The notes under the pieces were generated by a model, which had not been told where the DNA came from, made no database searches, and saw nothing but the letters and a program-made list of their open reading frames with translations. A stretch of DNA of 64,000 nt from Pseudogemmatithrix spongiicola. Lineage in GTDB: Bacteria; Gemmatimonadota; Gemmatimonadetes; Gemmatimonadales; Gemmatimonadaceae. Below are positions 43,841-47,555 of the stretch, one piece after another; the first letter of the stretch is position 1, and every line of letters starts with the position of its first letter. A program made the translations under genes and the position numbers. The stretch spans positions 248,001 to 312,000 of the forward strand of contig NZ_CP130613.1 in assembly GCF_030623445.1 (NCBI RefSeq). The letters run 5' to 3'.

Positions 43841-43982
43841 CGACGGCGAGCGGCCTATTGCGCGGATGGCAGGGACACCGTATCGATTGCGCCGCAGCGA
43901 CGAGCCGCAACTCCATTGAGCCTAGCGCAACCGAGTTTTCGTCCGCGAACGGAGGAAGCATGCACATTGACATTGGTCGGCT

Positions 43983-43993
43983 CCCCCCCCCCC
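43983..43993 (+). repeat. Poly-C (C11) tract at the start of a lipoprotein gene
   Basis: Eleven consecutive C. It lies between a GGAGGAAGC-ATG start signal (ATG at 43960) and the in-frame lipoprotein signal of the 44073 gene. As read, the ATG frame (MHIDIGRLPPP...) ends at 44070. With one extra C it would run into the lipoprotein frame. Confidence 0.8.
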
Positions 43994-44072
43994 TGCTCCT
44001 CGACAGAGCAGCGCCCGCTCTGCCAGGAAAAGGCGTTCCATCAGTGCGGAACTGCTATTCGCTGCGGTAGTC

Positions 44073-44939
44073 GTGCTGGGCGGTTGCAGCGAGCTGCCGC
44101 AGGAAGCGAAGTTTGCTGATCGATTGGCGGACGCGCGCACGGCCTCGATACCCGAGAAGCCAGACTCCATCAATTGGACACGCTTCGAGGTTGATGTTTC
44201 CGTCGAGATTGCGGGTGATGTTGCCCCGACCACTGCTCGACCCGTCTCGCGCGGATTCTCCTATCGGCTCATCAAGTACTTGGACGCCGACAACCGCTGG
44301 GTGGCGGACATACAAGTAGGACGCCTTCGGGCGGTGAATGCTGGCGAGCGTTTTGAGCTCGCTCCAGGGTCCTTCCGAGAGGTCGTGGGAGTCGCGCGCG
44401 ATACTCGGCCTCAGTTCTCGGACGGCCGGGGACAAACCATTGCCCCACCACGGCCTCGAATGGTGTCTCACGGGATTGTTGGGGCTGGAACTCCGCGATC
44501 GGCCGGGCAGATCGAGCTGCCAGCGGTTCCGACGCTTCCTGCACCCGGTTCGCGTGGAACATCGGTGCCCGGTGACACCAGCCGCGCTTGGCTGGATCAG
44601 TACCTCGCTACGGCGCAGTCTGGCGTACGCGTCTCAGCGGCGCTGGCTCGTGCCGGAGGGCAGGGGCAGCGGAGCGGGGCACGGCTTCGATTCTCGCGTC
44701 AGTCGGCAGGCGACCGAACTGAAATCGTGTTTGATGAGTCGGTCGGAGCGATCGTGGAGACTCGAGCGATGCGCGACGGCCGCTTGCATACCCTCATCGA
44801 GCGCAGGTTCAGCGAGTACCATCCGGGGGTTCGGGTCCTGAGCTCCGAGCGCGTGACGCGGTATCCCGAACGGGCTAGCGACGCCCCGAGAGTCATGACA
44901 TTCGTGTACCGGAATCCGCGTCTCCTTGGAGGGCAATGA
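44073..44939 (+). CDS. Lipoprotein, start probably 43960 through the poly-C tract
   Basis: 288 residues from the only in-frame start-type codon (GTG 44073). Its start reads VLGGCSEL. The frame upstream, without any start codon, encodes KRRSISAELLFAAVVV, which together makes a lipoprotein signal with lipobox. A strong ribosome site (GGAGG) and ATG at 43960 are one base out of frame because of the C11 tract. The gene is thus either phase-variable, frameshifted or mis-assembled. Mature protein: no known domain. It is ATGA-coupled to the lipase gene. Confidence 0.62.
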   Translation: MLGGCSELPQEAKFADRLADARTASIPEKPDSINWTRFEVDVSVEIAGDVAPTTARPVSRGFSYRLIKYLDADNRWVADIQVGRLRAVNAGERFELAPGSFREVVGVARDTRPQFSDGRGQTIAPPRPRMVSHGIVGAGTPRSAGQIELPAVPTLPAPGSRGTSVPGDTSRAWLDQYLATAQSGVRVSAALARAGGQGQRSGARLRFSRQSAGDRTEIVFDESVGAIVETRAMRDGRLHTLIERRFSEYHPGVRVLSSERVTRYPERASDAPRVMTFVYRNPRLLGGQ

Positions 44940-46408
44940 CAATGCGCCGCTTCGGATTGAGCGCATTCGCCGCTCTCGCAATCCGCTCCCTCTGCTTGCT
45001 CGCGCTCTCCGGAGCGGCCCTGCAGGCGCAGGACACGGCCGTCGTGTTTGTGCACGGCATCAACTCTAGTGCCGAGGTGTGGACGGGAATCGCGAGCAAC
45101 CTGCAGCAGCGGCTCCGCGTTGCGCCCGTGATTCCGAGTCTCAACTGGGCGCGAACGGAGGGAGAGCAGGCTACGCAGTTGTCGGGCATCTTGAACGCAA
45201 ATCCTCTGACGGCGAGCTTCGCACGTCGGATGCCATTCGTGGCGCACAGCAACGGCGGGTTGGTGACCCGGGAGTACCGCAGGGGCGACGGCCGCGTGCG
45301 CCATGCGGTGACGGTCGGAACGCCTCATTTTGGAGCTCCGCTTGCCAATAACTGGCTCAGCGGGACCACGATTTCGATATCCCAGTTCATCCTGGACCGG
45401 CTGCTAGACCCGGTCCGCTACTACTCGCTCAATGACATCGAGGCGCCCTCCGTCATTGACTGGGCGTACTGGGTGTCTTACCCGCTGATTTGGTTGGTCA
45501 ACGTGATCGACGCGTTGCTCTGCCCTGTTGCCGGCTTCTGCTTAGTGCTTGAGGCCGGAACATACGTCGCGGCGCCAGTAGTGTACGATCTCGCGGTCGG
45601 ATCCACTGCTACTCAGATGTTGAACTCGTCTTCGAACCTCACACAAGAGGAGGCGACCGTCGCGCAGCGCGTCGGGATCCGCACGTTCACTCCGCCTAGC
45701 GGGGCGATGTTCGACCTATTCACCGAGGAGCCCGAGGCGTGGGAGATCGCGCAGGAACTTGCTATTGCGTCCTACATCTCGGGATATCAGTACTACCGTG
45801 ACCACTGGGACTACTTTCTCCAGGCAAATGCATGGCTCTGGGTTGATGGCGCCGCTGCACTCATAGATCTCGATTATTGGTGGCAGACCCTAACCGGTAC
45901 GCTTGTTAGCTACAGTAGGGTCCTTGACCAGAACACCGGTTTCTACGGCACGTATCTTGAGGCGTTTCCAAGCGATGGGCTGGTACCTCACCTCTCGGCG
46001 GCCTATCCTAGCGGGACTCTTCAGATTGAGCTGCCTGGGAGAATTTCGCACTCGAAGCAGCTCAGGTCAGCAGCTGTGTCGGACGCGCTCTTCGCAGTAC
46101 TGAACGAGCGATTCGAGATTCCGATTCGCGATGGACCGCCCCCGCCAACGTACGTCGCGAGCATAAACGGGCCTACCCTCGCGCGTAGCGGCAACATCTG
46201 TAGCTGGTCAGCGGCCACGAACATCCCGGATGCCGCGTTCCAGTGGAGCGTCGACGGCGCAGTCGTAAGCGCATCGCCGGAGATTCTCCTAAGCGTCCAA
46301 TCCAGCTTTACTCTCTCGCTGCTCGTCAGCAACGGACAGGGCGCCAGCGCCTCGACTTCCATCTTCGTGAGTGTGGGTACCGAGAACGCAAACTGTGAGA
46401 GTCAGTAG
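44936..46408 (+). CDS. Secreted lipase-like alpha/beta hydrolase with C-terminal Ig-like domain
   Basis: 490 residues. Signal about residues 1-32 (LCLLALSGAALQAQ). Oxyanion region VVFVHGINSSAEVW. Nucleophile elbow FVAHSNGGLVTRE (Ser in AHSNG) and HFGAPLANNW, the pattern of PGAP1/lipase-like hydrolases. The C-terminal about 90 residues (ASINGPTLARSGNICSWSAA onward) look like an Ig/PKD-type beta-sandwich. It probably hydrolyses esters or releases lipids outside the cytoplasm. Its codons are less GC-biased than those of flanking genes. Confidence 0.82.
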   Translation: MTMRRFGLSAFAALAIRSLCLLALSGAALQAQDTAVVFVHGINSSAEVWTGIASNLQQRLRVAPVIPSLNWARTEGEQATQLSGILNANPLTASFARRMPFVAHSNGGLVTREYRRGDGRVRHAVTVGTPHFGAPLANNWLSGTTISISQFILDRLLDPVRYYSLNDIEAPSVIDWAYWVSYPLIWLVNVIDALLCPVAGFCLVLEAGTYVAAPVVYDLAVGSTATQMLNSSSNLTQEEATVAQRVGIRTFTPPSGAMFDLFTEEPEAWEIAQELAIASYISGYQYYRDHWDYFLQANAWLWVDGAAALIDLDYWWQTLTGTLVSYSRVLDQNTGFYGTYLEAFPSDGLVPHLSAAYPSGTLQIELPGRISHSKQLRSAAVSDALFAVLNERFEIPIRDGPPPPTYVASINGPTLARSGNICSWSAATNIPDAAFQWSVDGAVVSASPEILLSVQSSFTLSLLVSNGQGASASTSIFVSVGTENANCESQ

Positions 46409-47555
46409 CCGGATTCTCTTGCTCACGACGGGGGCAGCGCTCGGCTTTTCGTGCCGGGATCCAATGCCACCCGTTGGCACGGACGGCGACCCGCGCGTGT
46501 TATGGCGGGTACCGTCCGGCGCGGATGCAAGACCACACGAGCCTGTCGCGAATGCAGATGGCTCGATGGTCTACTTCCTGAACTCGGCGTATCGTTTGCA
46601 GAAGATTCGTGCGACGGACGGCCACGTCGTCTGGGATCGGTCAGGCGGGGTTCCACGACAGAACGGCGCGAGTTGGAATCTCGTGCGCAGCGCCCACGTG
46701 GTCGTGGCGCCCCGTGTGGACCTCTATGCGTTCGACACCACGTCCGGTCAACCGGCATGGACATACGTCGACCCAGAATTGGACGAGACCGGCTACAGCA
46801 CAATTGCCGCCGATAGCCAAACCGTCTACGCTGCCTCCCGGCTCGGAAAAATCCACGCCGTTGCAGCGGGGTCTGGCACGGCGCGTTGGATTGTCGATTT
46901 GAAGACGGGGGAGGTCTCAGTCGGCGCACTGCGCCCGACGCTCCACCATAGCCTGCTGCTCGTCTGTTCGCGAACCCTCGACGGTCCGTCACGTGGGACT
47001 CTGTGGGCACTCAACACCGCCGATGGAAGCGTGAGGTGGCGTTACGACTTTCAGCCAGAGCTTCCCGGACAGGGCTCTGCATGTTTCGGACACGCGGCGT
47101 CGATGGGTGACGTCGCCATCCAGGCCCAGGAGGACGGCCGGGTCTTCGCCTTCGAGCTGTCCACTGGTGTAGTTCGATGGGTCGCACCGCGCGTGCATGA
47201 CGTGACATCCGGCTTGGGCGACAGCCGGTACGCGGCGGCCGGCAGTGGTGTGTTCGTCGTGACGAGTATCGCTGACCGCGGCCTCGTCGTTGCCTACGAT
47301 CCCGTGGATGGTCGAGAGATCTGGCGCTACACCGAGAACGGAGGGTCACCATCTCCGGCACTCATCGCCGACGGCAGCGTATGGGTGGACCACGGCTATC
47401 GCTACGCATCCTACGACGCGGCAACCGGTCGACTGCTGTGGCAGACGCCGGCGGTGTTCGGCGCCCCACCCACTGTCTATTCGGGTCGTCCGGTCGTTGG
47501 CGCGGACCGCATCTTCGTGGCCGGACGCGACGGCTCCTACGCGCTCGTCAAATAG
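46395..47555 (+). CDS. PQQ-like beta-propeller lipoprotein
   Basis: 386 residues from GTG 46395, which overlaps the lipase 3' end by 14 bases. Lipoprotein signal RVSSRILLLTTGAALGFSC. Repeats of the PQQ_2/BamB type follow: IRATDGHVVWDRSGG, AFDTTSGQPAWTYVD, ALNTADGSVRWRYDF, AYDPVDGREIWRYTE, SYDAATGRLLWQTP. It should form an eight-bladed-type propeller at the envelope. Third gene of the atypical-composition unit. Confidence 0.85.
   Translation: MRVSSRILLLTTGAALGFSCRDPMPPVGTDGDPRVLWRVPSGADARPHEPVANADGSMVYFLNSAYRLQKIRATDGHVVWDRSGGVPRQNGASWNLVRSAHVVVAPRVDLYAFDTTSGQPAWTYVDPELDETGYSTIAADSQTVYAASRLGKIHAVAAGSGTARWIVDLKTGEVSVGALRPTLHHSLLLVCSRTLDGPSRGTLWALNTADGSVRWRYDFQPELPGQGSACFGHAASMGDVAIQAQEDGRVFAFELSTGVVRWVAPRVHDVTSGLGDSRYAAAGSGVFVVTSIADRGLVVAYDPVDGREIWRYTENGGSPSPALIADGSVWVDHGYRYASYDAATGRLLWQTPAVFGAPPTVYSGRPVVGADRIFVAGRDGSYALVK

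Follow-up and report, generated by a model that had tools for sequence, protein, structure and literature searches.

A C11 tract at the 5' end of a lipoprotein gene in Pseudogemmatithrix spongiicola: a probable phase-variation repeat with counterparts of other kinds in Gemmatimonadaceae

The 5' end of a lipoprotein gene in Pseudogemmatithrix spongiicola raises the question of how a long open reading frame without a usable start codon of its own could be translated when the only good start signal nearby is in a different frame. The gene lies in a stretch of 64,000 nucleotides (contig NZ_CP130613.1, positions 248,001 to 312,000 of the forward strand), hereafter called the window, whose own coordinates are used below. 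Between the start signal and the lipoprotein signal there is a run of eleven cytosines (C11, 43983-43993, + strand), which is here considered, with a probability of roughly 85% and from the comparison of sequences, to be a contingency (phase-variation) repeat whose changes in length bring the lipoprotein gene into or out of register with the one good start signal. The genome that holds the window is designated G000, and other genomes and loci examined carry G and L numbers.

The start signal (43951-43962, + strand) consists of a ribosome-binding site of the GGAGG type, with GGAGGAAGC at 43951-43959, directly 5' of an ATG codon at 43960-43962; GGAGG-type sites were also found 5' of the starts in G179 (first copy), G180 and G024. 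The reading from this ATG (43960-44070, + strand) is out of frame with the lipoprotein and comprises 36 codons before the stop codon at 44068-44070, the end already stated in the preliminary description, and would be the product of the OFF state. C11 begins 23 nt past the ATG and is flanked by T on each side. The lipoprotein frame (43971-44939, + strand; 322 codons and a stop), delimited by sequence and homologs, is open from 43971 to 44936, stops at 44937-44939 and reads ...PPPPAPRQSSARSARKRRSISAELLFAAVVVLGGC, with no ATG, GTG or TTG from 43971 onward ahead of GTG 44073. The distance from the ATG to the cysteine codon of the lipobox equals 2 modulo 3, and joining in phase takes either one C more or two C fewer; the need for one extra C had been recognized before, and the loss of two can be added as a second route. 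A promoter scan has found no sigma-70-like site.

Translation with one more C gives, as had been predicted, a basic n-region (RKRR), a hydrophobic core and the lipobox LGGC (44025-44087, + strand), and these align with the intact signals of homologs. The lipobox itself occupies 44076-44087 and its cysteine codon 44085-44087. Both RKRR and LLFAAVVVLGGC are present in the frame of the window and become joined to the start only at an in-phase tract length, and in G022, G026 and both G142 loci the start shares one frame with the corresponding n-region, core and lipobox. The product is predicted to be lipidated and surface-exposed. Features typical of contingency loci are assembled here: an intact downstream frame that a changed repeat number joins to a start, and a repeat unit that is not a multiple of three, placed in the 5' coding region with a good start upstream.

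The tract is beyond chance expectation because runs of at least ten C occur only four times in the entire G000 genome (a single contig of 3,257,781 bases), and runs of at least eight C only 18 times. C11 is also the longest single-base run of the 64-kb window, in which G8 comes next.

Comparison with homologous loci carries most of the argument. The lipoprotein gene is the first of a three-gene cassette that continues with an alpha/beta hydrolase gene and a PQQ-repeat protein gene. At E 1e-20, a profile of the hydrolase retrieved 8 of the order's 288 genomes, all of which have the lipoprotein gene upstream of it, and a profile of the lipoprotein added G021, where the hydrolase gene is also next, so that the pair is present at 11 loci in 9 Gemmatimonadaceae genomes. 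The segment from start codon to lipobox cysteine has been measured at all 11 loci (1,145 nt in total), and a simple repeat was found in it at 7 of them, or at 6 of 10 when G000, the locus that raised the question, is left aside. These repeats are C11 in G000, C10 in G021, the heptamer CAGCACG in 9.6 copies (11.1 by TRF with mismatches) in G133, (GA)9.5 in the first copy of G179, G9 in the second copy of G179, G9 in G180 and the decamer GTGGCGCGTG in 4.4 copies in G024. Counting C and G runs of the coding strand separately, they are of five kinds (C run, G run, GA, heptamer and decamer), all at the same position as the window tract. The remaining 38,634 nt of the 11 loci contain only three short repeats (GTG x4, GGGC x3 and TGG x4.3), and at that background rate seven repeats in 1,145 nt have a Poisson probability of 8e-12.

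All seven units are 1, 2, 7 or 10 nt long, none a multiple of three, and therefore a change of one copy shifts the frame at every locus. Six of the seven repeat-bearing loci are out of frame, five by 2 and G180 by 1, and G133 is in frame, whereas the four repeat-free loci are in frame without exception; ON and OFF states thus coexist among related alleles, the comparison being between species and not between strains. The OFF genes have intact frames of 277 codons in G180, 323 codons in G024 and 312-331 codons at the other four OFF loci. The trees were mostly unresolved and served solely to show that the two G179 copies pair closely; these are close paralogs, yet one carries (GA)9.5 and the other G9. 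The putative switchability is kept at the cassette loci while the repeat itself turns over, and the 11-locus comparison matches the expectation for selected switchability and an expendable repeat. With frame-shifting repeats of five kinds in the same place at 7 of 11 loci and in both frame states, the slipped-strand on/off layout proposed in the preliminary description gains support.

The same loci bear on whether translation might begin at GTG 44073 or at another internal start, which would make the tract irrelevant. In the lipoprotein frame no start-type codon comes before GTG 44073, but this GTG stands four codons ahead of the lipobox cysteine and would leave no signal peptide, and no homolog starts at that position; a conserved start there, named earlier as an observation that would tell against the switch, was not found, the homolog starts being 70-174 nt ahead of the cysteine. 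This codon has been rejected as the real start on both grounds, and internal initiation in general is scarcely credible.

In the proposed mechanism, slippage during replication would alter the number of C and move the lipoprotein frame in or out of phase with ATG 43960. With C11 the gene would be OFF, ribosomes halting at 44070 after 36 codons, and with C12 or C9 the frames would be in phase and the product would be a lipoprotein with a long basic N-region. The lipoprotein stop and the hydrolase start share the sequence ATGA (44936-44939), and for this reason the OFF state would probably also reduce translation of the hydrolase through lost coupling; the tract would thereby switch a two-protein surface module. 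Over the 11 loci this junction is a 4-nt overlap in six, a 1-nt overlap in one and a gap of 12-26 nt in four. Both variation of the tract length within the population and operation of translational coupling are presumed here.

The 18 runs of at least eight C in G000 include four at lipoprotein N-termini, the window C11 among them. The other three are in an M12B reprolysin-like gene (C9, in frame; Pfam Reprolysin_5, 2.8e-11), a trypsin-like gene (C8, in frame; GDSGGP present, Pfam Trypsin only 0.009) and a subtilase gene (C12 shortly past the lipobox, out of frame; Peptidase_S8, 4.1e-21). For the M12B gene, the other 178 genomes contain no relative at E 1e-15, so that comparison lends its C9 no support. 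When the whole family was scanned for at least nine C followed by a lipobox-like pattern, 32 of 179 genomes matched, mostly by chance, as a control with the reversed pattern also matched many; the scan brought in a pair of trypsin-like orthologs from one other genus whose proteins are 86% identical, with C9 and the ON state in G133 (start at TTG after GGAGG) and C10 and the OFF state in G131. The nearest relatives of the subtilase have C14 beside an N gap in G104 and the octamer CGTCCTGC in four copies directly at the ATG, in frame, in G133; the next-nearest, G171, has no repeat.

A recognisable lipobox was present at 22 of 30 trypsin-like and 26 of 30 subtilase loci, with a repeat in 3 and 2 of those, respectively. 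Eight trypsin-like and four subtilase loci without a match or a lipobox were left out, the G000 subtilase among the four; with its lipobox out of frame, it makes a third subtilase repeat case outside the 26. L162, also left out of this count, has two A8 runs. The more distant relatives with a recognisable lipobox showed a repeat at none of 19 trypsin-like and none of 24 subtilase loci, and since it is lacking from all of these, the repeats appear to be a mark of particular clades, not a general habit of Gemmatimonadaceae lipoprotein N-termini. In a partial survey of 28 loci, the runs of at least ten C of same-genus genomes were mostly intergenic or at contig ends and formed no lipoprotein group.

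Long C runs are hard to call, and the window tract might be an undercount by assembly or basecalling of a true C12, the gene being simply in frame in this strain. In G000, both coding runs of at least ten C within lipoprotein genes shift the frame in one and the same direction, and one offset, as an undercount would give, is common to seven of the eight OFF loci overall (window 43983-43993, L109, L108, L112, L150, L123 and L034; only L149, the G180 locus, differs). The shorter coding runs of G000, on the other hand, are in frame (L017 C8, L019 C9, L025 C8, L031 C8), an assembly error would not yield the GA, heptamer and decamer repeats that homologs have in this position, G180 has the other offset, and an undercount would still leave the repeat-rich N-terminus to be explained. 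An undercount is for these reasons regarded as unlikely, albeit the most serious of the alternatives. The homopolymer error already suggested for this tract is possible for the exact count in this one assembly, and it was rejected as the sole cause given the other repeat kinds in homologs; a miscalled run would not remove the switch, as C12 would be equally hypermutable.

The common offset also bears on recoding, in which a -1 ribosomal slip or the addition of a base by RNA polymerase on the C run would give some full-length lipoprotein from unchanged DNA. The lipoprotein frame is -1 relative to the ATG at those seven loci, and a C run supplies slippery codons; however, none of the GA, decamer and heptamer repeats is a slippery heptamer, G180 uses the other frame and G133 bears a repeat yet is in frame 0. 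Unlike what is expected of a recoding or programmed-frameshift signal, the kind of repeat is not conserved and the frame relation takes the values 0, 1 and 2, which makes recoding highly improbable.

Several observations weigh against the contingency repeat. Variation of length and frame was seen between species, with one genome per species, and the lipoprotein gene is absent from 16 of 16 other genomes of the same genus, which offer no sister allele. The shared offset (one nt more or two fewer needed in 7 of 8 cases, sign test 0.07) could also fit systematic undercalling of long runs or a contraction bias. Pfam gives no family for the lipoprotein. The G000 subtilase may be decaying rather than switched, because it lacks the GTSxAxP motif that is kept at 20 of the 26 loci with a called frame. 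A similar fate has to be considered for the window gene, which may have been lost by a frameshift with the C run as merely its site: it is out of frame in its one assembly and, as said, missing from the rest of the genus. About 300 codons past the tract are nevertheless free of stops, the two downstream genes are intact, and six loci have the same off-frame repeat yet intact frames, so that a pseudogene seems very doubtful.

With these points considered, the window locus belongs to a set of surface hydrolase genes in Gemmatimonadaceae that are apparently switched by repeats. A broader reading, somewhat favoured although clearly less firmly than the switch at the window locus, assigns to this family a phasome of surface hydrolase lipoproteins, made up of the lipoprotein-hydrolase cassette together with the genes of trypsin-like, subtilase and M12B type. 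Selection would keep the switch and its N-terminal position while unrelated motifs of 1, 2, 7, 8 or 10 nt would repeatedly take the place of the repeat, and bet-hedging of extracellular digestion would be a standing trait.

The hydrolase gene of the window (44936-46408, + strand) codes for a putatively secreted alpha/beta hydrolase of 490 aa with an HSNGG motif and a C-terminal Ig-like stretch, according to weak, sub-cut-off Pfam matches of the abhydrolase type and the profile search. The PQQ-repeat (BamB-like) protein gene follows (46371-47555, + strand; Pfam PQQ_2, 1.1e-28; start codon unsettled), and it is likewise third in G026, G133 and G142. In the first copy of G142 a frameshift divides the hydrolase gene, and no repeat is present where it is broken (L152:2120-2300). 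The Ig-like stretch (GP...C.W...W.V.G) is common to the hydrolase (window 46151-46405), the G000 subtilase (L016:2772-3233) and the M12B-type gene (L187, open reading frame end 3027); hydrolase and subtilase match in it by BLASTP at E 5e-4, and the likeness of the M12B-type gene was judged by eye. The frame of the G000 subtilase changes at the lost GTSxAxP (L016:2750-2960) and the Ig-like C-terminal part goes on in a different one, so that the gene has a lesion additional to the C12 tract.

No named relatives of the lipoprotein were found. Its AlphaFold2 model is only partly confident (mean pLDDT 63.3), and the best Foldseek neighbours were a DUF1329 protein (4z48, E 2.7e-5, TM 0.36) and LolA3 (9tp6, E 5.2e-4, TM 0.29), a weak hint of a lipid-binding half-barrel of the LolA/LolB type. 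At a guess, the lipoprotein might be a surface partner or a lipid-binding helper of the hydrolase.

Phase variation by simple repeats is known mainly from host-adapted bacteria. NalP, one such case, is a lipidated protein of the subtilase type. The nalP gene of Neisseria meningitidis resembles the window locus in having a coding poly-cytosine tract of varying length in a surface hydrolase gene that is ON or OFF by frame (PMC3723659). It encodes an autotransporter of a host-adapted pathogen and its tract variation was seen between isolates (PMC3723659), whereas the window locus is a two-gene lipoprotein-hydrolase module of an environmental phylum in which the kind of repeat varies among relatives. 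A homopolymer frameshift in a lipid-hydrolase gene is also known from Helicobacter pylori, where the phospholipase A gene pldA has a poly-G tract (PMC2831843); that tract is in the enzyme gene itself, and the window tract is in a lipoprotein gene that lies upstream of the enzyme gene and overlaps it. Homopolymeric tracts at the 5' ends of genes have been described as a general prokaryotic device, with the poly(A) of Listeria inlA as an example, and share with the window a hypermutable tract near the start codon and reversible inactivation (PMC2831843). The main text of that paper has no mention of the string Gemmatimon-, and the loci described here differ from its tracts by combining C and G runs with 2-, 7-, 8- and 10-mers in a high-GC lineage. 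The GeneTack survey clustered frame transitions in 1106 genomes and called phase variation from repeats near the transitions in homologs; one Gemmatimonadetes genome is included, only as a row of totals, and the cassette is not named in the part of the text considered (PMC3711429). The mechanism of phase variation is itself already known, and in the open-access literature, by title or listing, no paper on phase variation or slipped-strand mispairing was found for Gemmatimonadota, Gemmatimonadetes, Gemmatimonas or Gemmatimonadaceae.

If the proposal is true, free-living Gemmatimonadota would switch costly secreted enzymes stochastically, a clonal population would consist of producers and non-producers, and free-living soil and water bacteria, not host-adapted ones only, would permanently hedge their bets on extracellular digestion at the level of the population. 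The cassette locus would show unusually plainly that selection can preserve switchability despite turnover of the repeat sequence, and it makes testable how often and by what route contingency repeats arise anew.

Other tracts and leader elements have been observed in passing. A C12 in G000 (L032, G000:C1:2909859-2909870, + strand) lies 47 nt upstream of the ATG of a gene for a small secreted Cys-rich peptide, which is followed by that of a larger secreted protein, and it could act on the promoter or the leader. A C10 (L028, G000:C1:2673814-2673823, - strand) precedes an ATG of a sensor histidine kinase-like gene by 3 nt, a position from which it could influence initiation. In G022 an unrelated small lipoprotein gene has a C12 just ahead of its ATG (L125, G022:C10:283743). 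Similar pyrimidine-rich stretches of the CTCCC/TCTCC type were found just 5' of unrelated genes of G000 (L020, L021, L026 and L027) and look like a recurring leader element.
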